Below are positions 1-54,199 of a stretch of 64,000 bases of DNA, in pieces (position 1 is the first letter of the stretch; each line of letters opens with the position of its first letter). Origin of the DNA: Microthyrium microscopicum (taxonomy: Eukaryota; Ascomycota; Dothideomycetes; Microthyriales; Microthyriaceae); NCBI GenBank assembly GCA_010405405.1, contig MU004233.1, forward strand, positions 2,320,715-2,384,714. The letters are read 5' to 3'. The notes below the pieces were generated by a model. It was given only the letters and a program-made list of their open reading frames with translations, ran no database searches and was not told the origin of the DNA. The translations under genes were made by a program, and so were the position numbers.

Positions 1-338
1 GCTAGCTATAAATAAGAATAAGGTAGAGAAGGTATTATTAAAAGTAGATACCTATAAGATAATATTAATAGATTCTAGGCTAGTACTACTAATACTCTAA
101 ACGTTTCTTAAAGTAGCTAGCTAGTAAGGGCTACTACTACTTAGCTAAGAAATAATAATTCTTATAATAATCTATATAATGTTACTAATATAGAATTAAA
201 AAACTAGTAAGCTTAGATTAAAAACGTAATACTAAGCTAGAAAATTATAAAAATATTATTTTAAGATAGCGTTAAAAGTTTTTTACTTAGAATATAGTTA
301 TAGAGCTCTTTTTAATACTTTTAATAATAAATTAACTT

Positions 339-3300: not shown

Positions 3301-3350
3301 GCTTATTTATAATAAAACTCTTACTCTTCTTTTTATTCTATAGCTTTAAA
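339..3350 (+). pseudogene. gypsy pol remnant: protease, RT, RNase H, integrase
   Basis: Stop-ridden but alignable by eye. A retropepsin-like region lies at about 339-690. RT lies at about 1,040-1,490, with recognisable LNKLTIKN and a catalytic box reading YLNNVLIFS in place of the family's YLDDVLIFS. RNase H lies at about 1,870-2,250 (TNFFSYSLRAILVQ, where the family has a TDAS-type motif; later SNYLIYNKEILII). Integrase lies at about 2,690-3,330, with a degraded zinc-binding start and a core in which the conserved Q-T-D-G-x-T-E is still traceable near 3,160-3,185. The D-to-N changes and the trp/gln-to-stop changes are the substitutions RIP makes. No functional product is possible. Confidence 0.85.
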
Positions 3351-5168
3351 AACTTTATCTTTCTAAACTTCCTTAAGTAAGCTTTTTTATCTAAATAGAA
3401 GAATACTCTAAAAGAAAGAGAGGAAAAAATTACTTATATAATTTTAAAAGCTATAAAATAAGCTTAAGATACTATAACCCTTACCTAAGAAAGGATATAA
3501 GAATAAGTTAACTAAATAAGGATTTAAACGCCTAAGTATAAAGTTAGTAATTAGGTCTAGCTAAACCTAAAAAATACTAAGACTAAATAAGTAAAGAAGA
3601 AATTTAATTATTATTACTCTAAGTTCTAAGTTATAAAGGTAGTAAGCTTATATATAATTATATTAAATACGCTATAAAGAACTAAGAAATTCTATATTAA
3701 CCTACTTAAACTAATAATAAATAACCTATTTCTAAGTTAAGATACTAATAATTTTTATTTACTACTAATCTTAATTAAGAACTTAGATAAAGAGAAATAA
3801 GAGAAATAGCTAATAGAGGAAATTATAGCTAAAAAATATAAGAAGATAATAAAGAGCAAACTTTATATAGTCTATATTATTAAATAGGTAAGTTATTTAG
3901 ATATAATAAAAGAACTAATTAACTTTATTAAATAGTTAAAAGCCTATATAAAGTAAATAAAGAAAATAAAGTATATATAAGATAATTATAGAAGATTAGT
4001 ACTAAACTAGTCTATTCTTTAAGTATAACTAAGATTAAAAACTAGCTCTCCTATTATAATAATTAACTCTATAGAGATATAATTAAAGGTGCTATCTATA
4101 ATCTATGTATAAAAATACTTTTCTTTTATTTATACTAAGACCTCTTTTCCTATTAAATAAAACTAGAAAATTATAAAAATATAAGAAAACTAAAAAAATA
4201 AGATACGCCTAATAAACCTTTACTATTAAAGAAAATAAACTTAAGTAGTGCCTTAAGGCATAAAAGGACTAAAGTAAATAGTTAATAGTAGAAAATTCTT
4301 ATTCTTCTTAGTAACCTTCTTCTTATTATTATAAAGATATTTCTTATCTAAGCTAATATTATTATTATAGATATAGTTTAAATATATATTATTATAAAAT
4401 CCTAAAAGCTAAACGTAATTTATATATTATAGCTAATTCTTTAAATTAAAATAGCTAACATAATAAATATAACGCTACTTCTTATAAGTCTTATTTTGCT
4501 TATTTTTAGTAAGGAATTATAAGATACTTATATAATAAATACTTAAGGCTTTAAGATAACTAGTTTAGCTACTAGTTAACTAAATCGTACTAAGAAAGTT
4601 CTAATAAATTATAATATTATAAACGTTAAGCTATAAATTATTAGTAAACTTCTTAAAGAAGGCGTTTAATAAGTTAAGACGCTTATTAAAGAAGTTAAAA
4701 AAATAGTTAGCTATAATATAAAAGGCCTTACTTTATAAATATATTAATATAAATTAAGAAAGGCTAAAGAAGTACGTATAGTTTAGTTAATATAAAGTGC
4801 CTTAAATAAAGTATAGTTTTATAAATTATAGTAGTTAATAACTATATATACCTTTTTATATTAAAGAGTAGTTAATAGATAAGGATAAGGGTTATAAATA
4901 ATATTATTCTAATAATAAAGTAAGACTTAGTTAAAAAGGTAAAGGCCCTTATTTATGTCATTCTAGTAAGCCTTATATATAGCTACTTTATATATAGTAG
5001 GTAGATAAGATTAAGAAGTATTATAATTAGTAATATATATATAAGAAGGGGTAATAGTAATAAGGATATAACTATTAAAGCTAATAGTATTATTAAAAGC
5101 GTTAATAATTAGGGTAGCTATCTCTATACGATTAGTAAAGCTATAGCTACTATAATAAATAACTTACC

Positions 5169-5194
5169 TAATTAATTAATTAATTAATTAATTA
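5169..5194. repeat. TTAA microsatellite
   Basis: A perfect run of TTAA/AATT tetranucleotides lies inside the AT-rich 3' part of the gypsy element. It is probably slippage in RIP-generated sequence and has no visible function. Confidence 0.7.
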
Positions 5195-5710
5195 ACTAAG
5201 TAAGGAAGAAGAAACTTAATAAGAATTAATTAGAAGAGAAGAAGCTTATTTAAAATATAATAAAGGAAGAATAGTTAACTCTATAGAATAATATTACTTT
5301 ATACCTTTTAAATATATAGGTAGAAGTATAGTAACTTAACTATAGTTATATTCTTCTAATCTTATTCCTTAATATTATAATAGAGCTTTAACTAAGTATA
5401 AATAAGATAACCTACTAATTAAGTAACCTTTATAGAATTATAACTAAAAAGAATTAATATTATATACTAAGAAAGGAGCCTTATACCTAGAATTTAGTCT
5501 AAAATAGGTAAAATACTAGTATAGAACTAATAGTTAATAACCTAAGCTTTATATTTTATATCTAAAAGTAAATATATAGATCTATATATTATAAATAGAA
5601 GCTTTATTATAAACTATAAGAATAGTAAGCGTTAAATATAGCTAAATAAGATTAGGATCTTATAATTAACTTAGTATTTTAGCTAGAATTTTTTTAGATA
5701 GAGGAGGTAA

Positions 5711-5872
5711 TGTTAGGGGTTAAACTCCCTAAAGCTATGCCTATTTAGGCTACCCCTATTATATATAAATACCTTGATTAAAGAGTCTCTCAACTCTTCT
5801 TTCTCTCTAAGTTACCTTCCTGTTTAGTAGGCTTACAATATAACTTGTCTCTTCGTTATCTAACCCATAACA
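5711..5872 (+). repeat. 3' LTR of the gypsy element
   Basis: The repeat begins TGTTAGGGGTTA and ends TAACCCATAACA, giving the TG..CA ends of an LTR with short inverted termini (TGTTAGGG / CCATAACA imperfect). It follows directly after a purine-rich tract (GAGGAGG then TAA), the expected plus-strand primer. It contains a TATA-like TATATATAAATA at about 5,760 and a pyrimidine-rich stretch at about 5,788-5,820. At 162 bp it is short for a gypsy LTR. It keeps far more C and G than the interior. The second LTR is not in the window, so the boundary rests on structure alone. Confidence 0.7.
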
Positions 5873-5876
5873 TGCA

Positions 5877-5910
5877 GCCCCTGCGCCGTGAGTTAGGACA
5901 CCGGCGTGGG
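5877..5910. repeat. Orphan terminal inverted repeat of the mariner family
   Basis: Five bases after the LTR lies CCCCTGCGCCGTGAGTTAG followed by GACACCGGCGTGGG. The same string, with one mismatch and one indel, forms the right end of the mariner-type element at 43,175-43,205, and its reverse complement forms that element's left end at 41,800-41,830. This is therefore a right-end relic of a second copy. The rest of that copy is missing or displaced by the gypsy insertion. Confidence 0.65.
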
Positions 5911-7441
5911 AGTAACCCAAGAGGCTCAGCAATCGCTACTTTTGGAGACCCCCCGCCAACCTCGCCAGATCCTTGGATGTTTATGCGCCAGCTTCCGAGC
6001 AATTTAAAGTTCTGCGATCGATGTTGTGGCATCTCGATGTCAGTGTTCTAGAACTGCATACTCTTAGTACGCAACATGAACAATCTCGATGTCAACCTTT
6101 CTAAACCCGAGTACCGCGATAACTCGGCATTTTCCTCAACCATACAGGGCTTAGCTCTGCCAATTTTCCCACGGACAGTGGAATAAGATAGGGAACGAAC
6201 CCACGCACTATTTTCACTGAACATTGAGTAGTACACCGTGCTAGCTGTGCCCTGCAGGCGGTTGTGAGTGCAAAAACCATCAAGTCCCTCGGCAAAACCA
6301 AAAAAGATCAGCGCTTAAGCTGCCGTTCTGATCCTAAATCCAGGTTCGCTGTCGCAACTACAAGCGTCGAGATCTAGAATTCTGCTTTGCATCGAACTGC
6401 ATCCCAGCCGCGTTGCGAAATTGATCGGCACTGCTTTCCCCAACTACACTTCTCAGAGTCGCAAAATCAACGTCTTTCCCTGCGCATAGAGGTGAAACCC
6501 TGAATGCACAAACGCTTAGAGGTTGGCGTTGGGCTCACGGGGTCGTGGACGAGATTTGGCGTGGTGCGCAAAAGATATGCAAGTCGGACTTGTGGTTGGT
6601 TAGCGGTGAGTGACCAATGGGTTCGCTGCGCTCTGGTCTTCACGATGACTGCGCCCCAGGCCGATGGTGATAGAATGTCATCTTCCGTCTGGTCCGTAGT
6701 TGAAAAAGAAAAAGGGGTTACGAGTCCTTAGTTGAGGTGGAGATCACCGTTTGTAGATATCGTAACTCGTATACGGCATCGATCTCATTCGATGAGAAAT
6801 GTAAGGCGGAGAATAGCATCATGTTATGATGACGAGATATGTGCGATTTATGTAAAGCAAGAATTTAGGAATTGGCATGCTGAAATGGTGAAGCGGCAAA
6901 GTGGTTAGGCGATTGTATGCCGCAAAAGCGGCAAGATAAAAGGGTCAAATAAGATGTACCAAATGGTTGAAACTGGGCAGCCAAGCATCGAGTTAACCAG
7001 AAAGCTGGGACTCAATGGAGCAATCTAGTTCCTCACGATCTCGATGACAGTCCCGCTCTGGTAAGGTAGGAGAGTTTAAATATCCTGTGCCCAAAAGCTA
7101 TCAAGGGTCCCAAAAAAATTGATTGCTTGGGCATAAATTTAGATTGGATCCCGCGAATTCTCGGTGGTTACTGTTGTTTCTGACCCAAATCTTACTGCCT
7201 GAAACCGACTCGTCCACCCAGTCGTCATCCTGCAGCACTCGAGTTTGTTGCGCCTCATTCCAAGGCACCTTGCATACTGGGGTGACGGAAGTCAACGGCC
7301 CCTGGTTTCTTTTAGGCCTATCTACATATATGTATAACGCTTCTGCCTCCTCACTAAACTTTTTAAACCTCTTCAACTCCAACTCCAACCCGGACCTAAA
7401 CTTTCACAAGTAATGATCCAACGATAACACCAATCTACACA
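5911..7441. other. Intergenic, no gene recognised
   Basis: Composition is normal and no ORF shows codon bias or a domain. A perfect 6-bp hairpin with an AAAA loop lies near 6,918-6,935. A TATA-like TATATGTATA at about 7,325 and CT-rich sequence precede the small ORF at 7,442. Confidence 0.5.
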
Positions 7442-10973: not shown

Positions 10974-13093
10974 ATGGCCACTCTTGGACACGACCCCGAT
11001 TTCAGCACCTTTCTCTCCGAGTTAGACCTGGATCTGGCCAGCTTCCCCGATGGACTCAATGTCGATGGCCAACAACAGCATCCAGGCCAGCAGGCCATGG
11101 CCCAAGCCCAGCTACATCAGAACTTGGGCGCCAACATGATCGAGACATCTAATGGCCTCGCACAAAATAGTTCCATATTCGAATTTTCGATGCCTATGGA
11201 TGTGCAATTTCCTCTATCGCAGAATGGACACCACCAAATGCCAGGCCAAGGTCCTATTCCACCAACGCCTAACAGTGTTGAGATGCATGGTGAAAATCAA
11301 CGCTTCCTCCAACAGCAATACGAAGCCCATCGCATGATGATGGAACACTATCAAATGAAGAAGAACGAAGCCGCGGGGTTTACGCCTTATCTCTCACCTG
11401 TGATTCCAGAGCACGACAGTGGTTATGATATGCACGCGGGGTATATTGCACCAGGTGCCTATTCATTTAGCCCGCTCACTTCACCTGCTCTTGAAGGTCA
11501 AAATGCATATCATACAAATAATTCCGATACGTCTATCGCGACGTCTTCTCCCAAAGAATTGGATGTGGATATGCAAGAGTCTCCACATTTGCAGCCAGTT
11601 CCTGTAACACGGTCGAGAAAACGGGCAGCTGCACCGCGCTCTACAAAAACCAGATCACCAATTACTAAACCTCAGACTAAACGCAAATCCGGTCTCAATG
11701 TATCAATGTCGCAGACGGAGATTGCATCGCAGCAGGTTTGGGCTCCATCCCCCAATTTTCCACTTGCTCAACAGATTCCCAATGATTCTGTTTCGCCAGA
11801 GCCATTATCAGAACCTTCCATGGGACCACCACTAAAGCCGGCATCTGCAACGCAATCGCCTGCTATTGTGGCCAATGGACCACGAGGGTCAGGACAAAGT
11901 CCCATTCCTGCAACACCTGCTTCCTATCTTCAAATTCAACGATCTCTAAGTTCTCCAAGGAGTGATCCCCAGCAGGCTCGAGGAACTAGCGCCGAAGGCA
12001 GGCAACCAGTTTTAACACCTCTATCACTCCCTGAAGCAGCTGCGACACCTTTGCGACTTGACATGGATAGTCCAGATATTGGCTCTCGGAAGACACCCAA
12101 ACTCGGACCAATGAGCACACCATCTGGGCCGGTTACTCCTGGTGCAAATGGTCCACTTACCGCATCAAACTCTGCACTCAACTCTCCTATAAGCTCTGGC
12201 TTTTCGAAGAAAGCTGATGGGAAAGGTCGAGCTCCCAAAAAAGCCCGGGGAAGCATATCCAGCGGCCCTCAAGCTAGTCCTGCCATCAGACCTAAAATCT
12301 CACCGAGCATAAAACCTTTGCTCCCAGAAGGAGGTAAGTCTAAGCCAACTCTAGTATGCCTTGCTTGACTATCCGGTCATATCTTGTGATATCTTGTGAT
12401 ATTGCCAGTTTGTCTGTGCACTTTATGACCGTAATTTTGTAACTTTCCTTTTGTGGAGGCACTTCTAAGCGATAATGCTTTTTGAATCGCATCTGATCCC
12501 TCATCCGAAACACGAAAGCCATGCTAACCACCACTGTTTCTGCAGCGCCACACGGTGACGAAGCTCATACAATATTCTTGGCGAGTCGCTCCAATTACCA
12601 GAATCTTATCGAAGGCACCCATGTGCCTGGCGTCTCATATCCAACTGAGCTCTCCACCAACCTCACTTCAAAACGCACCTCGCACAAGATAGCCGAACAG
12701 GGCAGACGCAACCGCATCAATCTCGCGCTTCAAGAAATGCAAACCCTCTTACCAAAAGGCACCGGCGCCGCCGCCGAAAGCATGTCTCCTGGACCCGAAG
12801 AAGACATCGCTGCAAGTAGTAGCGGCAAAAAGGGCGGATCAGGCGGCGAATCCAGCAAGGCCAATGGCAACTCGAAAGCAGCCACTGTGGAAAGCGCCAT
12901 CGACTACATCCGCACCTTGAAAGAAGAACAGGAGCAGATGCGCACCGCAGCGGCGCAGAAAGAAAAGGAGGTGGACACCTTGCGTCTGAAGTTGTTGGAG
13001 ATGGAGCGCCTATGTCGCGAAAAGGGCGTGACGCTTGCCAAAGTGCCCGAGGAAGAAGAACCGAGCATACCGGCCTCCAAAGCACACAAATAG
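10974..13093 (+). CDS. NUC-1/Pho4-type bHLH transcription factor, 635 aa
   Basis: Exons 10,974-12,333 and 12,546-13,093; the 212-bp intron (GTAAGT..TGCAG) is phase 1 and closes the frame. The N-terminal ~450 residues are disordered and rich in Q, P, S and T. Residues about 482-515 (PGVSYP then SKRTSHKIAEQGRRNRIN) are the conserved entry and basic region of the phosphate regulators NUC-1 and Pho4. H500, E504 and R508 are the class B residues that read CACGTG. A Ser/Gly-rich loop of about 50 residues separates helix 1 (ALQEMQTLLP) from helix 2 (VESAIDYIRTLKEEQ), followed by a coiled coil. Family knowledge: these factors switch on phosphatases and phosphate transporters when phosphate is scarce, and the cyclin-CDK PREG/PGOV (Pho80/85) holds them inactive. 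The basic-region match is strong; orthology to NUC-1 is inferred. Confidence 0.9.
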
Positions 13094-14387: not shown

Positions 14388-16264
14388 TTAGCAAAACATG
14401 TGCCAAATACGCTTCCATCGAGGCCAGGACTGGCGTTCGCGCTCTTCCTCGGCAAGAAGCTCGGTGAGGTTGAGTTCACGGATTCCAGAATGGAGATCCA
14501 TATTGTGAGTTCGCACGACTTTAGTCCGAAAGTATAGTTTGTGAGGGATGTAGAAGGCTAGCACGATAGGCAGAGCAAGGTAATCCTGAAACCAGTTCGA
14601 TGTTCGTGCAGCAGCGGTCATCTGTTCCCAGCCAACGGGGGCAAAGCCAGTCCAAAACTGGGCAATGAGGACGAGAATGTTGAGGATGAGGCCGACCCAG
14701 CTTCCATAGACACCGCATTGGGAGCGGAAGGCAAGTTCACTGAGGGTATGGCCTTGAAGAAGCCAAGCTTTGCGGAAGCGAATGTGTGCAAGGCAAATGC
14801 TGCCCCAGGTGAAGACGGACGATAGACCGGACACGGCTATCATCCAGCGAAATACATCAGTCTGCTTAGAAGAGCCAGCTAGGAAGGCCAGGAATCCGAG
14901 AAGTGAGGCGAGCAAAATTCCGACGAGCGGTCGTCCTTTGCGATCAATGTATCCTAGGATACGAGGGGCTTGCTTTTGTTCAGCAAGTGCTGCTAGAGTA
15001 CGAGAAGATCCGTAAATAGAAGAGTTCCCGACTGATAGTACAGCAATCATGATGACTCCGTTCATGACGGAAGGCAATCCCTTAATGCCTGCGTTTTGAA
15101 TGGCAATGACAAATGGAGAAGCCTTGGCATCCGCATCGTTGTCGCCATTAAGCAGACGTGGATCAGTGTATGGCACAAGCAGGCCGACCAGAGTTAGAGA
15201 GATGATGTAGAAAAGAGTAATACGCCAGAACACTTGCTTTGTAGCGCGAGGAAGTGACTTTCGAGGGTTGAGAGTCTCTGCGGCAGCAAGGCCGACGAGT
15301 TCCGTTCCAGCAAATGCGAACGCAGCGGTGACGAAAGTTGAGCAGAGTCCTTTGAAGCCATTGTTGAAGGCGCCTGGGTTGCGCCAGTATTTACCTCCAA
15401 TGTAGGCACCACCTGGGCCTCCTCCAATGTCAAGAATGACACCAAGGATGATAAAGCCCACGACAGCGACGACTTTGATGATGGAAAAGACAAACTCAGC
15501 TTCACCATAACCTTTGACACCGAACAAGTTGATGGTGAGAATAAGCACTAGGAAGATGGCAACCCAAGCGTCGTTGTTGATACTTCCATGATTCCAAAAT
15601 TCGATGGTCAAGGTTGCAGCAACAATTTCCAGAGGTAGTACAACAAGCCACTGCAGGGCGTAGCTGTCAAATGTCAGTGAATGCAAACTAGAATTACAAA
15701 ATTGGATCATACTTCCAGCCCATTGCATATCCCCATGATGGACACAAGAATCGAGTGCTGTAGGCGGAGAAAGAACCAGCGACAGGGTAGAGAGTGGCTA
15801 ATTCGCCCAATGCCTGAACAGTGCAAAAGAGCATTATACCCACTATGGTAAATGCGATGACTAGTGAGGCTGGACCACCATTTGCAAGGGCTTGCCCGGA
15901 TCCGACGAACAGACCCGTTCCTGAGATGCAATTAATTTCCTGGTCCAAGCGTGATATGTTAAGAGATCAACTTACCTATAGAACCGCCAATGGCGATCAT
16001 CTGAAGATGTCGACCTTTGAGCTTGCGTGCCAAAGGGGACTGAGACGTTGCAGCAACAGCGGCTTCGACATCGTAGACCTTTGCGCCGGTTTGAGTGTTT
16101 TCAACGCGGGCTGGACGACTGCTGGGCTCTGGCTTGAAGCTGTCGACAAATCGCTGAACGAACGTCTGCTTTGGGGCGCCATCATCGTAGTTGTCGTACA
16201 TGGAGTGAGGCTGGCTCCCAGTATCATCCGACACCTCGTAGAGTTTCTCCTGACCTACAGCCAT
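14388..16264 (-). CDS. Amino-acid permease (AAT/YAT family, GAP1/INDA1-like), 590 aa
   Basis: Model: complement of 14,388-15,663, 15,713-15,920 and 15,976-16,264, with introns of 49 and 55 bp; the frame closes. A hydrophilic N-terminus of about 90 residues leads into the family signature at TM1 (GGSIGTGLFVGSGQAL), followed by NGGPASLVIAF, the GELATLYPVAGSF loop and GWNYALQWLVVLPLEIVAA across the second splice. About twelve membrane segments follow, with the conserved AGTELVGLAAAETLNPRKSLPRA-type segment after TM5 and a short cytosolic tail. The role is proton-coupled uptake of amino acids at the plasma membrane; the range (general or selective) cannot be read. Length is typical of the family. 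Confidence 0.93.
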
Positions 16265-17885: not shown

Positions 17886-19918
17886 TCAAGCTACCTTACC
17901 AAGCGACCGCCATTGCTTGTTTTCCCAGTTCATATGATAGATCTCATAATCTCGCCCCTTGCAAAAGATATCGAGCCTCTTTTTAACTAGACATATCACC
18001 GTTGGGGCTGATATAAAATCTCCCCCAAGCTGCTCCCAATCACTCCACCATCCTCGCCAAGATTTGTGATGGAGTTGATTATCACTTCCTACACAGAAGA
18101 GGTCGAGCGAGTCGCCATCTTGAGACACTACACAAGGACGACTGATGAACTTCCTTCCAAGGGACTCCCAGTCTCCCCAACTACAATTCCACCACCTGTG
18201 AATTACTTCACCGTCCGGACTGAGACCAAATACATTAAAGTCTAGCAGTTGGCGCGATGCAGCAGCAAACGGCGTTATTGTTTGCGTGTTTCCCAAGTCC
18301 TCCCACTCAGCTCCTTCAGGAAACCAAGCTCCGTCCAAAAACCATTTATACTGCAGTGTGTGAAGCGGTCCTCTCATGAACACGTCAATACGCCCAGAGT
18401 CACAGGATACCGCTTCTGGAGGACCAATGACGCTACCGCCAAGACAATTCCACTCCTCCTTGGAAGGAAACCATTCTCCATGTTCGAACGTTTTATGATA
18501 TAGCTGTTTATCCGCTCCCACGCCAAAGATATCGAGTCGAGCAAACCCAGGGGAGATTGCAGTGAGCGGGCTGACCATGCTACCTCCAAGATTCTGCCAG
18601 CTATCTTGTGAGAGCCAACCGTTTTGCTTAGCCAGATAATGCACTTCACCAGTGGTCGTTGGGGCGATTAGTTCGAATTGTGGCTCGCCTCTTGAAAATG
18701 CGATGGGCGCATTAGAGTAGGTGCCAGCTTCGGTTTGCCAGTAGCTTGGTAGCCAGCTTCCGTCTTCGATCTTCAAGTGTTTTATCTTGCGGTCACTTCC
18801 TAGGACCCAAACATCCACTCGATTGGGGGATGAATACGCGGCTGAGATGCGCGAATTGTGTAAAAGAGATACTGGCTGGAAGCTCGTTTGTCTCATGATC
18901 GTTGACGGGGCCTTTCCTCAAGTCAGTAATACGTACAACGACCTCAGGTCATGACATATACCTGTGCGAAACTTTGGTATTTAGAAGGGCCTACAGAGTC
19001 CCTGTTGTTCTCCTCAATCGCTTTATGCAGCCTTGTTATTGCTTTGTTCAAACCTTCTCCATATATAAGAGGCATAAAAACGTCAAAAATTCCCATTGAG
19101 GAATATGCCATATCTTCTTCTCTAGTTGTCATGCGGCCATTCTGCCATGACAGCCGATCATTGACGCTGAATAGAGATAGATCCTGTGCCTGAAGGGCGT
19201 CTGGTGTCAAGTTTGTGATCTTACTGATTGATTCCGCAAGCGATTCTTTATTGCCTAGTAGTTCACCTTCGCTAGAAAAGAATTCCACTGTTTCAGGGGC
19301 AAGTAATTCCTGGAGAGTCCAGCCTCTAGTGAACCATCTGCTGGACTCGAATTGCTGTTTCCAGGGAATGCCATTTGAGATTGTGACGTCTGTGAGGTAG
19401 ACATAACATCTTTCCGCATCGCGATACCAACGAAACATGGAATTGATTGCTTCTGACAGCTCCGCGCTACTTGACTTGTCGATTGCTATATTCAGTCAGC
19501 TCTAGATCGATCGCTCATATGTCTCCTTGAGCAGATCTGCACAAAATATTGCATCTCCAGAGAATTATCAGACTGCGTTTTTGAATGGAAGACGGCAGCA
19601 TACACAGAGGGGTGGAGGTACTCAATTTCCGTGAATTATAAATGCAGCTCTCACCTAATGAGAGGGATGTTAAAAAGACTTACCACAGGTGTCTATCCAA
19701 AAGTAGTCAAAGCCGTCTTTCGCTGCTTGTTTGGCACAGAACTCAATCTTTTTATAGCCTGTCTTACTCTTTCCAGCACCGTCAACTACATCGCGGAATG
19801 AGACTTCTTCACCAGCCGCTCCCCATGTGAGAGAGAGTATGGCATAAGGCGGGATGTCACAGGCAAGGAACTCGGCTAGTGTCAACTCGCCTGTTTGTTC
19901 AAGCTTGAGAAGACGCAT
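17886..19918 (-). CDS. HET domain protein fused to a seven-repeat PLL-type beta-propeller lectin, 594 aa
   Basis: Model: complement of 17,886-18,911, 18,962-19,485 and 19,684-19,918 (introns 50 and 198 bp; the frame closes). Residues about 1-170 are a HET domain: MRLLKLEQTGE start, YAILSLTWG (usually YAILSHTWG), EVSFRD, DYFWIDTCAIDKSSSAELSE (usually CC), MFRWYRDAERCYVYL and GWTLQELLAP. Residues about 280-594 carry seven repeats of ~45 residues with the pattern (L/V)D(I/V)F..G.d..(L/I)yh..w...W..LGG...(S/G)P, as in the seven-bladed PLL/PHL fucose-binding propellers. HET domains execute heterokaryon incompatibility, usually beside NACHT-WD40 or ankyrin sensors; here the sensor would be a lectin. 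If the 50-bp intron is not removed, HET ends at TGA (18,944) and the propeller could start at ATG 18,896 as a separate gene. HET and propeller calls are strong; the fusion is likely. Confidence 0.82.
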
Positions 19919-21169
19919 TCTGATAAGCGTTGTTCAAAAGACCTTTGGGAACTGTTGAAAGTTCGGACGTGATTCTCTTGGAGCTTTGATAAATCATGTC
20001 CACGATACTGACATTAAGGCTGAATGATAAAAGTTAGCGCAAGACGAAGGCACCGTCAAATGAGTCTAGGTTGTACACCGGCCTCCGCTACGGTCATGCA
20101 TATACCTATGCGAGGGGCAAAGCTCAGGTTTACTTGAAGTGTGGCTGATCTGATTATCAAGTCTCTGTGATAACTATTGGTTGCTGAATTGAGACGCAGC
20201 CTACAATATTCAATTACTGTACCTCGCAAGATAACCTGCATAATTCTAATCCTTTCCCAATCTGCCTGCCAGGTACTTCAACTTACTACCAGCTGTATTT
20301 ATGCAACTCAGTTCTAGAGAAGCGCTTGATGCAGCAAGACAGATTTCTTCCTTCCATCAAGTACGATATTAACTTCACGTCGACTGGTTTTGGTTGATAT
20401 TACTGGAGTTGAATATCACATTGAGAAGCACGTTGCCACCTAAATGCTTCAAAACAGACCATAAGAACCAGATAAGTTGTCCGTGAATTAACATAATATT
20501 GCATATTGTGAGAGAACAGAAAGCACCTGAATCTTTCTCCATTGCCCAAGGTAACAAAGCTATCAGAGCCTTCGACACTTTCACAAATTGTTGTATTTGC
20601 GGAGCTGACATGAGGCAAATGTCACGATTGAAGAATATATTTCCCTCTTGACCGACGACAGTGTATTCCATATGCCCCATATCCTACGCCATCATGATTT
20701 TCTTGGGTTCTGCCCCTGGATGCTGCCTGGAAGGCTTCTCTGAGTCGATACCACCTACTATGTGTAAGTGGAGCCTACACGCCGACTGACCTGCTGCTTA
20801 AGAGATCTAATCTGGCTGCCTGACCAAATGGGATGCTATCTTACAATCCTGAGACCTGCTACTTCGATGGAGCTCCAGCGAATGCAAAGCACACTTCTCT
20901 GTAAGGCGCCAGTCAATGGGGCAGTTTAGATCACTGGATATCACACAGAAGTCAATCTTCCAGAAAGTGGGAACTCTCAGTCACATATAAACTGGACATT
21001 AGGTCAAGAAGTATCTTCATTCTGGTCGGGTGTCTCTTCTCACGCAGTGACCAAGAACTTCCTCATCACTCCAAACACCGCCTTCATAGAATTTCCATAC
21101 CGGCCCCTGAGCCAGGACAATATATTCATCGCTCAACTCTCACCAAATCAACCCACATCCACCAGCGCA
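19919..21169. other. Divergent promoter region, HET-lectin / Ser-Thr-rich protein
   Basis: It separates the HET-lectin start (leftward) from the Ser/Thr-rich gene (rightward). A minus-strand ATG ORF of 101 codons (20,375-20,680) has no recognisable domain and is not called. Confidence 0.4.
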
Positions 21170-21928
21170 ATGGCGGCTCATACAACGCTGACCGTCCAGA
21201 TGCTCTCCTCTGGCTCTAGTACATTCCTCCAAGCCATTACACCCATTACACTGGCCACTGGACCCACAGTACCAGCAACTACATTCCCAACCATGTCTGA
21301 TTTCCCAACGATATCAGCCACACCAGACGAACCAACAATGACGACCTCCACAACATCAAGTTCCGTGTCTCCAAACCCATCCGCCTCAGAGCTACCAACC
21401 ACACCAACAACGATAGAAGGACCTTCCGTAACAGTAATCCTCTTCTCCAACAGACCACCCCTAACAATAAACCGCTCCCTAACAGGTCCACCAGCACCAA
21501 CACCAACACCATCAAACTCAACCGCCGCCACACCAACAACAATAGTAACAACCATATCCAACGGCGTCCCCATAACTCTAATCCTGACTCACTCCTCCGC
21601 CGGTCCAACCCGAACTCTCACCGTCGTCCAACCAAAAGTTCCAAGCCGCACACACACCGGTACAGATCCCGTCAGCACCATGACTGTCACTATGCCAAGT
21701 CCCACGATTGATAATCCGTATACGTCGATGACGTTGGGGACGTTGTTGTCGACTGATTATATGATTGATGCGCCGACGGGGGGCACGGTGACGTTTCCGT
21801 GTGCGGTGTATCCTGGATATACGGCGATGTGTGTGTCGGGTGGTGAGAGGGAACGGGTTCCTTGGACGGTTGGGTGGGTGGTGGGATTTTTTGGGACTGT
21901 GGTGGTGGTTCTTTGGGTGGTGCTGTGA
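21170..21928 (+). CDS. Ser/Thr/Pro-rich protein with C-terminal membrane segment, 252 aa
   Basis: The frame is open further upstream, but only from a GTG; the first ATG is at 21,170 (MAAHTTLTVQM). Residues ~1-210 are a Thr/Ser/Pro-rich mucin-like stretch likely to be O-glycosylated if it reaches the secretory route. Residues ~215-240 hold a small conserved-looking part with two cysteines (FPCAVYPGYTAMC). The last ~22 residues are one hydrophobic helix (VGWVVGFFGTVVVVLWVVL) ending at the C-terminus. That could be a tail anchor or a GPI signal. No N-terminal signal peptide is visible, so either a first exon is missing or the protein is tail-anchored. The family is not recognised. Confidence 0.55.
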   Translation: MAAHTTLTVQMLSSGSSTFLQAITPITLATGPTVPATTFPTMSDFPTISATPDEPTMTTSTTSSSVSPNPSASELPTTPTTIEGPSVTVILFSNRPPLTINRSLTGPPAPTPTPSNSTAATPTTIVTTISNGVPITLILTHSSAGPTRTLTVVQPKVPSRTHTGTDPVSTMTVTMPSPTIDNPYTSMTLGTLLSTDYMIDAPTGGTVTFPCAVYPGYTAMCVSGGERERVPWTVGWVVGFFGTVVVVLWVVL

Positions 21929-23282: not shown

Positions 23283-26200
23283 CTAAACAGGGGCCAATGG
23301 TCGAGGGCCTTGGTGAATGTGATTGTTGAGAGTTGCAAATAGCTTCTCGACTTCGGGGCTTGCTTTGACAAATGGCAATTCCCAGAATTGATAACCCGGG
23401 TTCTTGTAGAGTTCAAGCAAGACAACGATTACGCCCCAAGGATGTGGACGGTGCACGTGTAGTCGTTCGATGAGGGTGCGCACAATCAACTCCATGAGAC
23501 CTCCGTGTAGCTCGTCGGCAGATGATGTGTTGACGCCGAATAGATCCATCAAGGCACACATGAACCAATGGGTGTGCGAGTTGGGGAATCGCAGTTGGTC
23601 GACCACTGCATTGACAAACAGATGGCGGTCATCCAAGTCAAGAGCCTGACCCAATTGCTGGAAGAGCTGAGCATGCGGAGATGACTTATTATATCCGTTA
23701 GCTAGCTCAAGAGCCTTGACGCCAGTGTGAAAGACAACGGCATTGATAATGGATCGATGATACGATTCGCCTTTGATGGTCGCTTTCTTGGGAGCTGACA
23801 CACTTTCATGCAACAATTCGCAAAAGTTGGCAATGCCCTGTTGTGATGGTTGCGCATTTTCAAGAAGAGACTCGAGTGATTTCATCACGCCAGATTCATT
23901 GAGAATGTTGACATAGTCTTCTCGAAAAGCTGGGGCACTGAGCATCTCTTCGATGTGATCCAATTTCAAGCTTCCAGCAAAAGGATTGGGAAGTTCAGCC
24001 TGTTGAACCGGCACCGCGCTCAATACCAAGTTCTTGGCTTGGACAAAGTAGTCAGGTAGCCGGTTGAGCAGTGTTAGATGGTTGGAGCTGAAGAAATCCG
24101 GGAAGTCGTGATGAAGAATAACCAACAGTCGTAAAACGCCGCGGTAAAAGTCTTGACCGCGTGCATATAGTTCTGGGTTACCCGATTCAGGAGCATTCAT
24201 TAAACCGGTGGCCGTGTCAAATACGATATGCAGAAGTTGAAGGTATTGGTCAGTCGACTTGCGGAGATTGGAAACCGTCATATCTTCATCCATGTCAGTG
24301 TTTACAATTGGATTTCTCATGCCCAGCATTGCCGGTATGAAGATGCGATGAGATATCAGACTAAGCCAAGCAAAAGCAAAACCTGGAAGGTAATTTGGTT
24401 GCATGGCCATGAAGCCTTGCGCCACGGTAAGATATAGATCGCTTTGCTGAATATATGGCGAGTTCAAAGAGTGGATTTCCGAGAGCAGGCTGGAATAGAA
24501 GCGGAAGAAGATCTTTTGATTGGCAAGATCTTGTCGATGCTTCCAATGATCGCACTGGTAAAGGATCGCAACGCTAAGCATAGAATCAAAGAATGATATG
24601 CTGTCCAATTTGACTTCTCCATCGGTTTTCACACCATGATAGACAGTCAAAGCCACGATAAGCCCAGCAAGAGCATCGATGTGGATGTAAGCTTGGTCTA
24701 CTGAACCACCATATGGTGTGGCCTCTTCTTGTTCGTATGCCATGATGGAGAGATCCAAGCACAGACGAATGAATACGGCGAGCTCTTCGGCGTTTTTGAG
24801 CACATCGCGATGGTGCAGTTGGTGGATGAAAGACGCAACAGTCTTGTCGGTTGCTTCCGGGCGACTTAGTTGAAGCCATTCCTCAAAGATATGCTCAATC
24901 TCATCTTGCTTGTTGGATGAGAGGGTTGCCATCTCATTGCTTGGTGTTGGAATTCGAAGTTTGTCAAACAATTCTTTACCAGCGTCAAGATTTGGATCTT
25001 CGTGGACCCACTGTGTCATAACCTCGAACGAGCTAGCAAAGTTCGCTCTTATCGCTAGCGGATGCTCGCTCAACAAAAGCTCATCAACGAATCGAGCCAG
25101 ACACACAATGGCTATTTCATGCCGATTACGAAGACCCTTGGCAATAATCGCATCTACTTTTCGCAAGTCCATCAGGCGGGCGTTGACAAGATGAATGGTG
25201 ACTGGAGATGAAAGAATTCTGTCGTCCTCGAGTGAGGCAAGCCACAAAATGATTTGTCGGGCGGCATGCATGGAAAGCTGACAGAGATGAGCCAACACTT
25301 GGACGGCAACTTCGATCTCAAGTCGTCCTTCGGCCTCATCGTACATGGTAATTGGGAGGCGGCCTGCAATAAAGAGAGCAACCTGATCACGCTGGTTGCC
25401 AGAAGCATCAACAAGCTGGATGAGTTGATCGTAGAATTCTCGGACCGCGGAGTTTGGAGAAAGAAGCTTGATGCTGTCTTCAGGAGCGTCTCGAGCACTT
25501 CGAAAAAGCTCTACATACAAGGCTTCTATTCGTTCACCAAGAGAAGCAGGCTCGCTGTATCCATTGAGCTGAGGTTGTGGGGTTGAAATTCCTTGTGGGT
25601 TCATCATTCGAGAATTGGGAACTTGGCGCAGAACAGCTGGAGCTTCAGCCGGGGTTGGAATGGCAGACGTGAACTGTTCTTGAATCACATCTGGTGGCAA
25701 TTGCTGTCTAGTATCCTGTCCTAGGCCCTGATGCGGCCCAGCGATATTGCGAGTGGCACCAAAGTTTTCATAGATTGCAAGCTGTTCGGGGCTCAGATTG
25801 CCGTAGCCTGAAGGCTTGAAAGGATCTGGGATGGCATAGGCGTATTTTGAAGGCGGCGGGTAGGAGTATGGCTGATCAGGCTGTGCTTGCTGGTGCATTT
25901 GACGGAGTTGGATCGAATCACGAATCTGATTTTCGATTTCGGCAACCGAGTACTTTTCAGCAGCCTCTTCGATGACCCGACAGACAACGTCAATATTATC
26001 GTTGACAAACATGAGAATCACGCCCTCAGGAAAACTATCCCCAGGAAGAGTGCGGGAGTTGTTGCGAACGTGATTGGTAATACTCATGCGGAGTGGCTCT
26101 CGACAAGTGACCATGGCCAAGCTACCGGACAGCGACTTGACCATGTTCTGCGCTGCATCACGAAGTTGATCTTCACGAGATTCTGTGGCATAGTCTTTGG

Positions 26201-29200
26201 TAACCAGCTGCGACGCTGCTATGGCTGCTATCGTTACCGACCGCTCGACCACAGGATATATGATTTCGGTGATAGCTTGAGTAGCAGCTTGAGCAAAGAC
26301 TTGATGAACTTGATCATCTGCGAGAATTGTGCTGGAGTTTGGTGGATACTGAAGACGTTGGCTAATGTCCGGCAGGTTTTCGGCAAGAGAAGCAGGAGAA
26401 AAGGATCCTCGATTGACTCGAGGGCGGGGAATCAAAGACATGTCGTGGAAGCCGTCAAGTCCTTCGGGAATACCCGTGCCAAACTCTCCGTGATCCGCGA
26501 GGGCCTCACTCTCTCGAATGACAGTGGCGGGTTCAGCCTTCTTCATGTCAAACTTCAATGCTCCACAGAGGGCTTCAATTTCAAACTTGAGGTTTATTCG
26601 AAGTTCGGAATATGTGTAAAGCTCGAGTAGCACTCGGAGAATCTCGACAGTCCACGGATTGGGTGGTTGGAAAATCTCACTCTTTGTGGCTTCCGCGAGT
26701 ACCTTTGCCGTGAAAGGGATTGCGATGGCTAATCGTTTGGTAGCATTGGCTTCAATAAGAAGATCCTTGAAGGAGAGGTTCTTGATCTTGATGGGAACGT
26801 CACGAGCCAGAGTTATGGAGCCTAGCCAGGAGCCTAGGCTTTTCAAGTGATTCTTTTCAGTCGCTGAGGTCATCGTAGCCTCCATATTGAGTAATCGAGC
26901 TACAGAGACATAAGTCTCTCGTATGATCTCTTGCCATAAAAGGCTATCGTTGAACAAATCAATCAACCTAAGGTAAAGACCTTGGAAGTTCGACTGAAGT
27001 TTGGCACGTTCCTCAACGATATACTCGGCAAACCATTGATGATGTTTCTGTTCGAGAACTTCCATGATTCCTGGTTGTTTTTCTTCAATATTGGCGGGAG
27101 AGACATTGTTGAGAATGAATAGTATCTTGTCTTGAACATCTTCGGACGGGGCTTCATAGGTCGAGTCGTGAAGTGGAGGATCGGCATGGATACAGCTGAA
27201 GCCAAGCGATGGCACCTCTGCATAGTCTTCGCCATTGCCATTTGGGAGCAATTTCGGGCTTGTGACATGCTCTTCACCATCTGGTCGACCGTTGCGGACA
27301 ACATCTTCTGCAATGATCCATACATCAGTTTCCTGGAGTTCTTCGATCCTTAGTAGTCGTTCGCAGAAAGTGGGCCAGTCTGCTAGTCTGCTTTGAAATT
27401 GTTTCAGGGCTTGCAGGCCGAACTTATACAGCTTTTCTTCCCGTGACGCGCTTGATTGAATAGCCTCCAGAACCATTGCCAAGCCCACTTGAAGCGCAAT
27501 TGACGATAAGAGATTGAAGTTGATTATACCGCCAAATAGAACCGCAGTGGTGGATAGAGCATCGACTGGGTATTCGGCGAAACAATTATATTCGTCGAAT
27601 AGACCATTGATCATGCACGCAAAGAGCTCCTGCTCTTGTGGGTTATCGGATTGCTTGAAGCGCTGCAAATACTCGATGACATCTCGAACTTTGCTGTCAC
27701 CATTATACAGCTTCTTGAAATGTTCGTTCATGATTTGATCGGCTTGTGAAGACAATTGATGACCTTCTTTTCCGTTGGCCTCGATCACATCATCAAAGCC
27801 TTCGCCGTAATTTATCAGCCGGGGGTATGCGTTGATGCAGATCTTGAGGACGGCGACCAGAGACTCCTCAGGTAGATGAGGTTGGAGAAAGTTCAAGAAA
27901 CCGAAGACAGTCTTTACAGATAATTGAACGGTTCGCGGAGCAGTAGGATCTCGCTGCATGGCCAATTCGCTTCTAGCTTTGGCCTCTACAATGCGAGCTA
28001 GTCCAGTAGGGAAGGCAGCCGGTATGGCGTTGTATTGTACGTCAAGCCAGGCTTCCAGATCCAGAGTCCCTTGAGAATGCGCTAAAGCGGCTAGATCAAC
28101 ACCAAACTCGTTGGAAATCGATGTTAGTGTTGGAATCCATCCGTGCTCATTGGCATGTTCGTAAATGAAATACAGATCTTGCGGGTTTTGTTGATACATT
28201 TCGATGAATTTAGAGGCAAGCCAGAGGTTGTTTTCGCGTTTCCATAGCCCATGAAAGACGAATTTGTCGCCTGGCAGGCGCTTTCGGAGAAATGGAGTGA
28301 AGAGTTGATTGAAGGCTTGCGACTGTAAAGAGCCCCAAGGACTGGGTACGGCACCAGTCGCGAGAACGAAATAGTCGGTGTGAGGATTAATGATGGTTTC
28401 GGGTATGCGCATCGAATTGGCTTTGGCGTATTTCTCAGGAGATTCGAAGATCATGCTGAAAAGCGCGGCGGTCGCATCGAGAGAAACAAAAGGGTGTCGT
28501 ACTGCCAGTTCAGCATGTGCTTTCACCTCGTCAGTCGCGTCCTCAAAGGTTTCGAGATCGTAGGCCTTGCGGAGCCGGGGTATAGTAGAAGCATCTAGCT
28601 CGTCAGTGCTACAGGATAGGAATGCGGCGACAAAGGATAATTGAGTCTCGGTGTTGAGCCATTCCCCGCCCCAGAGTAATTGAATATCGAAATTTTCATA
28701 TTCTTGGCCAAGGGGTAGAAGAGCGTGGTAAAGAGCCAAGAATTGGCGCTTTGATATTCGCAAGTCTGGCCGGTCAAATGATCCAACAACATCTTGCCAA
28801 TCTGTTCGCTTGCTAATTCGATGATCCTTCAAGGTATTTAGGAAAGTTGTCGCGTCGTAAGTCATTCCTAGATCCTGACTCAGAACCATGTAGAGGAGTA
28901 CGTTGGCGATATGGGTAATTGAGACATCTCTAGTATCGATGTGGCTCAGCATTTCTTTGCAGCTTTCGAATGAGGCCGTGGCACTCGGACGAGACTTTTG
29001 AACGAGCTTCAATAGTAGGTTGGTTGTATCAAGAAGTGCGGAGAGCTGTAAGAGGTTCATGATTTCTGGTGGGACATCGGATTGAAGCTTATCAAAACGG
29101 GACCGAATGACGAAAACGAGATTGGCAGGGCTCTCTTCGGTCCAGTTTCGTGGCGGGTCATGGATGATATGTTCAAGGAGGGAGTATAGATAGGCGATTG

Positions 29201-30104
29201 GTAGGTCATCACCTGCTTCTGAAGTGGGGCTGGCGATGATCATCAAAAGGTGTTGATAATTATTTGCCAGTATGGCATCAGCTGCGAGGTGTTAGCATAT
29301 TAAACAGTTGGGGATGAGCGTTGGGTACCCTTTGTCCGTAGGTCGGGTTTTGACGCGTTCTTGAGGGACAGCGCCAACATGCATTTAGCCACGGCATCCA
29401 ACTTGAAATGTTCCATGAACTTTGAAACATCGAAATTCTTGAACAATTCGCCTTCGGTAGTATCAATGGACTCGGCAATTTTGTCTGCTTCATCGGGATC
29501 TATCCGTATCTTTTGAACATATCTCGTGAGGAGGTCATAGCTTCCTTGTGGTTGTGCGGCATTGTTGAAAATGTAGTCGGCATTGAGTTGGAGAATTCGA
29601 CGGAAGAATTTAGGATACACGTCCATGCCGTGCTGCGATATCATCTAGATGTAATTGTTAGAATATTGTTTTTGCGTGATGGATGGACATGTTTACGTCG
29701 GAGATTTGCTCAGCTTGTGATTCGCGCTTGACCGTGTCCTTTTCCTGATTGATGGTACCCAACAGTATAAAGATCTGAGTCAGAACCAATCTCGACAAGC
29801 CTGATGGATTGGCAGCAGAACTAGGAGAGGCAGTTTGTGATAGAGCGGGAGAGGCACGAGGTATTCGCGTCGAGCCCCCTCCGCCGCCAGTCGCACTAAC
29901 ACCTCCTTGTGAAGCGGTAGGCAGAGCTGCGGCGGCGGAGGCAGGAGGCTGCGAGCTCGCGGAGGACGCTATTCTGGCGCGAGATTGCAGCTGGCCCGAT
30001 GAAGGCTGCTGCGAACTTTGCGGCGAAAAGGGTGAGGGATTGGTGGAGGATTGGGTGTGCGAAGCTGGCTCGGTATAGATTGGAGGCAGGCGTCGTGGTT
30101 GCAT
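23283..30104 (-). CDS. NOT1: CCR4-NOT complex scaffold subunit NOT1 (CDC39), 2240 aa
   Basis: Model: complement of 23,283-29,281, 29,329-29,644 and 29,697-30,104; introns of 47 and 52 bp, and all phases close. NOT1 is the scaffold of the CCR4-NOT deadenylase that shortens poly(A) tails and represses translation. Visible parts, in order: a disordered Ser/Pro/Ala-rich N-terminus (1-~90), alpha-helical HEAT repeats, a MIF4G fold binding CAF1 (about residues 965-1,155, including SLGSWLGSITLARDVPIKIK), the DUF3819 CAF40-binding helices (about 1,228-1,318, from VHQVFAQAATQAITEIIYP), and the C-terminal NOT-module/SHD domain (about 1,690-2,230, ending HPWGVIVVLLELYKNP). Length matches ascomycete NOT1. 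It starts divergently from the F-BAR gene. Confidence 0.95.
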
Positions 30105-31580: not shown

Positions 31581-34500
31581 ATGCCAGCTGCTGCTGCTGG
31601 TGACGCTCCGGGGGTGTCCTATTCTTGTGAGTAGACTTCATCCTCGCGCTAGATATGTCTAATAAGCTATAGTTGCGAACAATTTCTGGGGAAAGGACGA
31701 TGCTGGCGTTGCTCCGCTGTTGGAGCGCATGCACAATGCCAAAACTACCTGTGACGAAATCAAGACATTCTATTCAAGTACGCTCTATTATTCCACGCAA
31801 TACACCTTTTGCTAACATCAATCTAGCTCGCGCTGCAATAGAAGACGAATATGCCCGCAAACTCGCCGCCCTCGGAAAGAAGCCGCTCGGATCAGGCGAG
31901 TCTGGCACCCTGCGCATGTCCCTCGATACGATCCGCAAAGAAGTAGAGTCCATGGCCAAAGAACATCAAACTGTCGCCAATCAGATGAAGTCCGAACTCG
32001 ATGAACAACTCGCTATAAATGCTGGGGGCCTCAAAGAGCGACGGAAAGTTATCCAGACTGCCATCGAAAAGCTGTACAAGCTCAAATGCCAACAAACGGC
32101 TACACTCAACAAGACTAGGGAAAAATATAAGCAGGATTGTTGGAAAGCAAAAGGATACTCTGCCCAGTCGCATATGGTCATGGGTCAAGAAGAGCGGAAG
32201 AACAAGGCCAAGTTGGAGAAGACATATGCGCAAATGGCGACAACTAGTACGGACTACCAAGATGCGGTTGCTGCTCTTCAGGAAACTACTGGCCGATGGA
32301 ACCGAGAATGGAAGAATGCGTGCGACGTGAGTCCATGCCACGAACAACGATGGGACAGTAACTAATGAGCACACAGAAATTCCAAGATCTTGAAGAGGAG
32401 CGCATTGAGTATCTCAAAGATAGTTTGTGGATCTTTGCAAACATATCATCCACCGTTTGCGTAACTGATGATCAGGTTAGTAACTTGAGGCTATCAAATT
32501 ACCATGCTAATGCTGCTACAGTCTTGCGAGAATATGCGTTTGTCCCTTGAAAAATGCGACGTAGACGACGATATCATGTCATTTATCAAAATCCAAGGAA
32601 CTGGACAAGAAATCCCCGATCCACCAAAGTTTATCGACTTCCGTCGCGATGATGCTGATGACACGGCCTCTGAAGTCTCTGTTGCCAACAATTGCTCTAT
32701 CGCTCAATTTCCACGAGCCTTGAATCCATCCATTCGACCTGGAGCTTCGTCTCCACAGCCTTCTGTTTTCGAGTCTCACCATGATCCAAATTCGGCCCTG
32801 GCACGAGAAATGGGCATTGGTAGTTCGCCTCTTCAAGCTACAGCTGGCTCGGAAATCCCAGAGCCGATAAAGAAAATGAAGTCTCGCCAGCCATCGGTGG
32901 AGCCTGAGAGTCCATATGGCCAACCTACCTTCGCCACTTCATACGTTGATCCCAAGCCGGCTGCAAGAAATTACCCTCCAGATCAATTCTCGAGATCTGT
33001 ACCCCCTCTCAATGGCTCAGACATGAGTTCGTCGTCAGTGAGCTACAACCGACGACCATCTCAAGACTCTCATAGCGAACTCTCTCAAAACTCCTTCACT
33101 AGCTATGAAGCATCCAGTGTTGGCCATCAATCGCCCGTCAAACAGATGGCCGACGAGCCAGCAAAGAAGAACCCTTGGTACAAGAGCCCCTTCAGCCGAT
33201 CCAAAGCATCTGGTCTCGACAGCGCAGAATCAACACCAACACCTACCAACCGCGCCGCAAGCCGCAATACCTGGGGTCCCGTCGCAGCCCGTCAAGCAGG
33301 CATGGACAGCACACCCTCCCGCAACGCACGCGGCGCCCTCTTCTCCAACCAACGCACCGCCTCTCCCGACCCTATGATAGATCCCTCCGCCAAAACCCAA
33401 CTCAACATCGGCTCCAACATCTTCGACGTCTCTCCCAACGCCCACCGCCAACACCAACAACCACCATCAACACAGCTCGGCGACCCAGCAGACCCCCTCG
33501 AACAAGCCCTCGCCGACCTCGCCGACATCACCAAAGGCCCGCGCGACCGCGAATCCGCAGACCACCATCTCGGCCTCCACACCCCAAACCCAGGCTCTCC
33601 CCTCCCCGGCGCCGTCCCAACCCCCTTCGCCGCCTCCACCGCCCGCAGCACACCACCACCCGCCTACGCCGCCGCGCCCATCGGCCACCTCGGTGCCCCA
33701 CCAGCAGCACATACAGCGCGCGACATGCACGCCGCCAAAAACCGCTACGTAAACCAACGCCGCACAGTCTTCGACGACGGACGCGCAAGTCCCAACCCCG
33801 TGCGCGCAACAAGTCCCCGTCCACCGAACCAACAGCAACCACAGCAAGGAACCTACAACCGCCCACCCAGCGCCCAAGCATACAACCGCCCCGCCTCCCG
33901 AAACACCCAAGCCTACACCACCACCCCCGTCCCACGCGCCACATCTCCAAATCCCTACGCATCCCGCCCACGCGCAAACACAAGCACACCGCAAAAGAAC
34001 TACAACAACACCGGTTCCTGGGGTTCGCGCGGCCGAAACAACGCCTCGCCTGCACCACCCACCAACCTCCCTCCACGAGCGGTATCACCTAATCCAGCTG
34101 CATATGCGAGCTCGCAGAGTAGACCGGCCAGTCGAGTCGCGAATGGGAGTGGCGAGATTGTAACTATGCGTGGTAGACCTAATAGCCAGTACTATCCGCC
34201 GGAAGCTGCTGGACAGGGACAAGGTGGACAGGTTAGTACGCGCGTGCGGAGTAAGAGTGTGGCGGATGGGAGACAGTTTACGAAGGATGGGAGGGTTATT
34301 TTGCATTTTAGTAAGTTATACTTGCCCCTGATACGCCAGTGAGGGTGACCGGAGCTTGCGAGGGATCATCAGCTTGCGAGGGATCAGTCACTATCCTCTG
34401 AAGTGGACAAATCAGCTAACGAGTATTCAACAGCACGAGCAATGTACATGTACCAAGCCCAAATCCCCGAAGAACTAGGATTCGGCAAAGGTGACGTCTT

Positions 34501-53289: not shown

Positions 53290-54199
53290 ATTATCTAAAG
53301 GGGCGTGATAATTATTCACATCTTTAAAGCATAAATTATTACATATAGGTTAAATTTAAGTATTAGTATTACTAAATCTACTACTGCTCCCTAATAACTC
53401 GTTTAAGATTAATATAATCCCCTTCTATTACTATAAGATTATTTAATTAGTTCTTATCCAAAATACTAATAAAATATATACTTACAATGCTTATAATACA
53501 ATCTAAAACATTCATAACAAAGTAGGACGATATCTAGACATTTTATATAATAAAATCTAATAGTTAAAATATATCTTTTAGGTTAACCATTTGCCTTTAG
53601 CTAACGGTAAAAGAAGCATATTCCTCTTCTACTATTGCTAAAGAGCATTATAATATGCTTACTAGCTGCGAGTTATATTATAGGAAGCTTACTACCTAAA
53701 TAAGCAATTATCTAAGATCTATAACTTTTAAAGTAGTATTTTACCTTTTCGTAAGCCTATACTATTAAATACTTTATATATTCGATTCCTTTATCTTTAA
53801 TAATACCTAAAACACATAAATTCTAGGCCAAAATAGTACGGAATTGCCTTACATTTAATAGATGTCATTAAAAGTAGTTTTTATTAGCTCTAGCGTAGTA
53901 TAGTTGCATGTCCTATTAAACCTCTAGAGCTAAGATATACGCATTTCTAACGGTTGCATTAAGGTTAAAAAAGAATAGAGGGAACTACGTTTAATAGCCT
54001 AAAATAAAGATGTATTAGTACAGAATTTTAAGAGCTTTCGAATAGTACTATTTTTAAGAAAAAATATTAAGAATTAACTTCTATAAAAACTCTAGCGGCG
54101 TTCTCTTACTTTAGTAGTAGACTATATAATAAGCTTGCTACTAGTTCGTAATATTAATACCGCCTATAAATAAATTATAATCTATAGCTACGGTAGGCT
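53290..54199. other. Moderately RIP-mutated AT-rich repeat of unknown type
   Basis: AT-rich, but unlike the flanking gypsy element it keeps some CpA and TpG (for example CATGTCCTATTAAACC), so it is less saturated with RIP and probably a different insertion. No transposase or pol motif was found in either strand. Confidence 0.5.

Follow-up and report, generated by a model that had tools for sequence, protein, structure and literature searches.

A candidate HET receptor with a PLL-type lectin propeller in Microthyrium microscopicum

Introduction

HET domains are described as cell-death effectors in Podospora anserina (PMC4986451, PMC12881547), and fungal genomes can carry more than 100 HET genes, the triggers of which are described as mostly unknown (PMC10890737). 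Here, we analyse a 64,000-nucleotide stretch of the Microthyrium microscopicum genome (GCA_010405405.1, contig MU004233.1, positions 2,320,715 to 2,384,714; hereafter, the window) that contains a gene in which a HET domain appears to be joined to seven repeats of the type found in the Photorhabdus lectins PLL and PHL. The locus raises two questions, i.e. whether both domains belong to one gene and what the repeats recognise. Our preferred answer, to which we give about an even chance of being right, is that the gene encodes a HET receptor whose recognition module is a propeller derived from a lectin, and that the ligand is probably a protein.

Results

A gene model joining a HET domain to seven lectin-type repeats

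A script that enumerated every open-frame splice choice from the ATG at 19918 to the stop at 17886 yielded, as the best model, a three-exon gene on the minus strand (19918-17886) for a predicted protein of 594 amino acids; the coordinates, strand and reading given in the first-pass annotation were correct. The elements of the gene are:

Exon 1, 19684..19918, minus strand: ATG at 19918, MRLL start, first part of the HET domain (YAILSLTWG ... WIDTC)
Intron 1, 19486..19683, minus strand: 198 bp, phase 1, GTAAGT donor, CTGAC branch-like motif, TATAG acceptor
Exon 2, 18962..19485, minus strand: remaining HET domain (AIDKSSSAELSEAINSMFRWY ... GWTLQELLAP ... LIYGEG)
Intron 2, 18912..18961, minus strand: 50 bp, phase 0, GTATAT donor, CTGAC branch-like motif, AAAG acceptor
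Exon 3, 17886..18911, minus strand: seven PLL/PHL-type blades, supported by Pfam DUF346, a phmmer search of the PDB, AlphaFold2 and Foldseek

The MRLL start is common to paralogs. Intron 1 contains stops in all three frames, and in both introns CTGAC, a branch site of fungal type, lies a few bases upstream of the acceptor. Given the preferred intron 1, five choices of intron 2 preserve the frame, and the 50-bp intron has the best signals among them. When the junction region was shuffled with its dinucleotides preserved, a loose intron model found some frame-joining intron in 787 of 5000 shuffles, and a strict model, the donor list of which was picked after the site had been seen, in 41 of 5000 others. 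Because of these counts, we consider intron 2, and hence the join between the HET domain and the propeller, likely to be real but short of proven. If intron 2 is retained, the product is a HET-only protein of 258 amino acids with a stop just beyond the HET domain, a possible sensorless form.

In the spliced protein, both domains exceed their Pfam cut-offs: HET (PF06985) scores 43.1 bits (cut-off 22.5) and DUF346 (PF03984) 46.3 bits (cut-off 22). Unspliced, the two HET exons score 21.7 and 13.5 bits and fall under the HET cut-off. No further Pfam family, and neither NACHT nor NB-ARC, was found in the spliced protein at E up to 1. In total, the proposal that a HET domain and seven PLL/PHL repeats lie in one gene holds as the best model. 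The GC content (guanine plus cytosine) at third codon positions is 0.45-0.48 in this gene and 0.49-0.54 in four neighbouring genes.

Exon 3 is predicted to fold as a seven-bladed propeller

The seven repeats follow each other with start-to-start spacings of 47, 47, 49, 50, 44 and 44 residues. In a phmmer search of the PDB, eight distinct sequences matched at E up to 1, all of them Photorhabdus PHL/PLL proteins including PLL, PLL4 and PLL5, and PHL was the best match (2.4e-39). Exon 3 as a single sequence gave an unusable structure prediction (predicted local distance difference test, pLDDT, 37.6); with a six-sequence alignment, to which five bacterial relatives had been added, the AlphaFold2 model reached a pLDDT of 77.9 and a predicted template modelling score (pTM) of 0.79. 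Blades 1-2 are its weakest part (pLDDT ~63-73 at residues 51-80 of the exon-3 frame), and alignment support is sparse there. In Foldseek, the top 22 matches of this model were PHL/PLL structures with template modelling (TM) scores of 0.79-0.84 over the full length. Thus, the seven blades that the first-pass annotation had expected from a structure prediction were obtained, and the predicted fold is clearly a beta-propeller of the PLL/PHL type.

The blades of this propeller have a mean pairwise identity of 0.28 (range 0.15-0.43); in the same comparison, five PHL blades reached 0.65, the Kitasatospora relative 0.45 and four Nostoc blades 0.92. Fungal NOD-like receptor (NLR) repeats are classed as highly conserved at an internal identity of >85% (PMC4986451). 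Because the blade identity is 0.28 as compared to >85% in such repeats, a pattern of diversification by repeat shuffling is not apparent in the window propeller.

The canonical sugar pockets are eroded

The fucose site of PHL is described as consisting of Thr194, Trp199 and Trp214 together with backbone atoms, and the galactose site as including Arg186, Glu188 and Trp202 (PMC5584973); both tryptophans are reported to be essential to stabilise the ligand (PMC12203525). Read with hand-set blade anchors, the corresponding residues in blades 1-7 of the window propeller are:

Trp199 position (fucose stacking): K, H, Y, Q, I, H, Y (Trp 0/7, Tyr 2/7)
Thr194 position: S, T, A, P, P, S, R (Thr 1/7, Ser 2/7)
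Arg186 position: R, Q, R, R, D, S, R (Arg 4/7)
Glu188 position: D, E, D, D, N, D, D (Glu 1/7, Asp 5/7)
Trp202 position: K, A, T, W, W, S, N (Trp 2/7)

The Trp214-type residue is Trp in all seven blades, and no blade has all three galactose-site residues (Arg, Glu, Trp; 0/7). The blades of PHL itself have Trp at 199 in 7/7 and at 202 in 5/7. Thus, the conserved sugar pockets that had been expected in the propeller are not kept, with Trp in none of the seven blades at the 199 position and in two at the 202 position.

An aromatic residue (W/Y/F) is found at the 199 position in 73 of 80 bacterial blades as compared to 2/7 in the window (Fisher p = 0.0004), and in 50/56 bacterial blades once four near-duplicate proteins are removed (p = 0.001); blades within a protein and related proteins are non-independent, and these p values overstate the evidence. 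The 80 blades come from 13 proteins, 11 partial blades having been excluded. The blade model used for this comparison had two window blades in its seed and found window blade 2 only partly, and the residue of this blade is that of the hand anchor. The erosion of these pockets speaks against fucose binding of the canonical kind, though not against every ligand.

The HET domain and its location

HET homology ends at about residue 245 and the first predicted propeller strand begins at about residue 275, leaving ~30 residues between them. The motif WTLQELLAP is kept, and the HET motifs presumably resemble the HET-D/E/R type. The first-pass annotation had singled out two departures from the HET consensus, and only one of them is unusual. 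The His of SHTWG is Leu in the window gene, and pattern reading found His in 23/23 other paralog loci with a readable motif; L031, L037 and L045 are without one, and a chance-like match in L052 as well as the second loci L054 and L055 were set aside. By contrast, the Ala in place of the second Cys of DTCC is ordinary: among 21 other paralog loci, pattern reading gave 12 C, 4 S, 2 A, 2 T and 1 N, i.e. A/S/T/N in 9/21. This change is common to L030 and the closest paralog L027, and was rejected as a special feature of the gene.

Inspection by eye, without the use of a predictor, showed no signal peptide, and the protein is therefore probably cytosolic.

The closest HET relatives carry other C-termini

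The host genome comprises 36.9 Mb in 20 contigs, in which PF06985 gives at least 153 HET matches; this count is an exon-by-exon lower bound, and some genes give two matches and some contain stops. A paralog search with exon 2 returned 32 rows; the gene itself is among them, and some of the rows represent different parts of the same gene. The closest paralog, L027, is 59% identical over residues 1-161 of the 174-residue query. In a HET tree of 19 sequences, for which the 18 paralog loci with a single readable frame were taken, the window gene, L027, L028, L029, L035 and L048 were split from the other 13 with support of 97.6 (SH-aLRT) and 98 (ultrafast bootstrap, UFBoot); the branching order within this group is not resolved. 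The C-termini and domains of these relatives, the joins being inferred from adjacent frames and not from annotated transcripts, are:

L056 (wider locus of L027): ankyrin in a later frame, sub-threshold
L057 (wider locus of L028): C-terminal NB-ARC, over the Pfam cut-off
L058 (wider locus of L029): C-terminal NB-ARC and TPR, over the Pfam cut-off
L059 (wider locus of L035): C-terminal NPHP3_N over the Pfam cut-off, NACHT sub-threshold
L048 (G000 C2:4047748-4049286): two HET domains in a single open frame of 1021 amino acids

NB-ARC, NACHT-type or TPR domains thus form the C-termini of the closest HET relatives, a pattern that suggests that sensors have been swapped among them.

The nearest propeller relatives found are bacterial

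In an exon-by-exon scan, DUF346 is over its cut-off at one place in the host genome, i.e. in the window gene. A scan of genome contigs with the propeller alone gave no relative; with a three-sequence alignment, it gave five loci. No relatives were found in phages or viral contigs at the sensitivity of those searches. The nearest relatives found, in collections searched without a fungal set, are bacterial and 22-38% identical. In one bacterial order, 7/148 genomes have a propeller relative; one frame each was read from six of these seven genomes (L064-L069), the seventh being the query's own genome. Five of these frames and one plasmid frame were scanned with Pfam, L066 being left out as near-identical to L065. 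A peptidase domain (C1, S8, M10 or C70) was present in 4/6 scanned frames and no other known domain in 2/6, and none of the six DUF346 frames had a HET domain or an immune effector. In L064, L065 and L067, PLL-type propellers are C-terminal on papain, subtilisin and matrixin-type proteases, and the matrixin-linked propeller keeps the fucose-type motif GTDNALWHKW in its blades.

DUF346 proteins occur in fungi according to PMC10481521, the available part of which mentions no HET context. The propeller may have reached M. microscopicum by recent horizontal transfer: the nearest relatives found are bacterial, whereas DUF346 is already present in fungi.

L060 2291-3394 (G000 C3) contains another, distant propeller-like frame, which is 368 amino acids long and has no Pfam match. 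It matches the window propeller at E 0.45 only and follows an acidic frame in which repeats of the DLPEVV type occur; it may be a membrane-anchored surface lectin.

Genomic surroundings

The following features were assigned elsewhere in the window:

12497-13093: bHLH
14388-15797: amino acid permease
23283-29291: NOT1
31673-32365: F-BAR/FCH
35159-37153: LON/RING
44732-47107: kinase

Divergent from the HET gene lies a frame that is rich in Ser/Thr, ends in a hydrophobic tail and has no Pfam match (20930-21928, plus strand). The flanks of the window are very AT-rich (GC 0.19-0.24 at 1-6000 and 0.15-0.19 at 54000-64000) and contain no frame of at least 150 amino acids; GC is mostly 0.45-0.55 in the middle, with 0.35 at 42-44 kb and 0.38 at 52-54 kb.

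Discussion

A HET receptor with a lectin fold is already a known kind. BH, the het-B protein of P. anserina, consists of a HET domain, a HET-associated domain (HAD) and a C-terminal fold like that of fruit-body lectins, and swapping of the lectin-fold region switched its specificity (PMC10890737). Its partner, defined genetically, is the PII-like protein BP; direct binding is not shown there, and a metabolite sandwiched between the partners is considered (PMC10890737). Lectin-fold HET proteins are counted there as 13/132 in P. anserina (PMC10890737). BH resembles the protein of the window in being a non-NLR HET protein of ~600 amino acids with a C-terminal lectin fold. It differs in that its fruit-body-lectin fold follows a HET-associated domain, whereas the window protein has a PLL-type propeller ~30 residues past HET, and in having a recognised partner.

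The NLRs of the HNWD type in P. anserina, i.e. HET-E, HET-D and HET-R, share with the window protein an N-terminal HET domain and a C-terminal beta-propeller recognition domain; unlike it, they have a central NACHT or NB-ARC and a WD40 propeller, whereas the window protein has a PLL-type propeller with 28% identical blades and no NACHT or NB-ARC. Photorhabdus PHL/PLL (5mxe, 5c9o, 6rfz and others) share the seven-bladed fold and the repeat sequence, but PHL has the stacking Trp in 7/7 blades as compared to 0/7, and PHL and PLL are free lectins without an effector domain. Bacterial DUF346 propellers, in the one order and in plasmid records, are modules of the same type, with a peptidase domain in four of the six frames scanned and HET in none. 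No protein with HET and PLL/DUF346 was found in searches of the open literature (titles and abstract openings), and the main text of a fungal lectin survey (PMC8227253) has no match to PLL or seven-bladed. Within the searches made, the new element is the PLL-type propeller.

In the reading that we prefer, one gene, expressed as a single transcript, would encode an intracellular HET-type receptor with the N-terminal, TIR-related HET domain as output and the C-terminal PLL-type propeller, swapped onto it, as recognition module. The propeller would bind a non-self or altered-self ligand in the cytosol; the HET domain would thereby be clustered or released, and regulated cell death would follow. 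The ligand would more probably be a protein surface, perhaps together with a small ligand, than a simple sugar, because the pockets are eroded and because the one HET protein with a lectin fold that has been tested answers, in genetic terms, to a partner protein.

Several observations weigh against this reading. Further good fold matches of the model in Foldseek are the lectins AofleA, BP39L, CV39L and AAL, and an NCBIfam lectin model matches weakly (39.1 bits, far under its cut-off of 350). Kitasatospora, the nearest complete bacterial relative, is also without Trp at the 199 position; because it has Tyr in six blades and His in one, Trp may never have been present in the branch that it forms with the window propeller. 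Moreover, loss of the PHL pockets is compatible with another sugar site, which is possible. The His-to-Leu change could mean that HET output is altered or lost. Finally, no gene for a PII-like or other known partner was found among the window frames scanned (18 of the 26 others of at least 150 amino acids and one of 123), although a small or intron-split gene could escape such a scan.

Unlikely, if less so than the other alternatives, is direct sugar sensing, in which the propeller would bind glycans that reach the cytosol from invaders, fused cells or broken vesicles and so trigger HET. Proven lectins share this fold (TM 0.79-0.84), a Tyr occupies the stacking position in 2/7 blades and the Trp214-type Trp is present in 7/7; multivalent propellers are suited to clustering, and the BH authors allow for a metabolite between the partners (PMC10890737). 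However, the fucose-stacking Trp is absent from 7/7 blades, the pocket Thr is present in 1/7 and Ser in 2/7, the galactose-site Arg, Glu and Trp are present in 4/7, 1/7 (Asp in five) and 2/7, with all three in 0/7, and no signal peptide is seen by eye. In total, the direct sugar binding proposed in the first-pass annotation is not supported by these observations. Ranking just behind, and also unlikely, is a cytosolic glycan-sensing death receptor, the pockets of which would have been altered for an unusual non-fucose sugar or glycoconjugate, with intracellular exposure of the sugar leading to regulated death.

Rather improbable, and third in rank, is a degenerate receptor or decoy in which HET no longer signals, SHTWG having become SLTWG, and the propeller has drifted along. 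The His-to-Leu change is found in 0/23 other readable paralog loci and the mean inter-blade identity is 28%. By contrast, none of the three exons is interrupted and their splice signals are consistent, third-position GC is near that of the four neighbours, and the blades still yield a propeller model. Least probable of all is an arrangement of two adjacent genes, in which a short HET protein would end near 18944 and a PLL-like protein of its own would start near 18896: this is compatible with the sequence, in which each frame has its own stop (HET) or Met (propeller) and all predicted propeller strands lie downstream of that Met, but only 47 bp separate the HET stop from the Met on the same strand, the in-frame intron has a donor, a branch-like motif and an acceptor, and the L058 HET frame likewise yields to NB-ARC/TPR in another frame, as across an intron.

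If the HET receptor with a lectin-derived propeller is the correct reading, a second, unrelated lectin fold on HET would suggest that fungal immunity has repeatedly used lectin folds as modules for recognition. Moreover, the protein would be a compact receptor without the ATPase of NLRs, on which the question of a protein or a sugar ligand would be directly testable.
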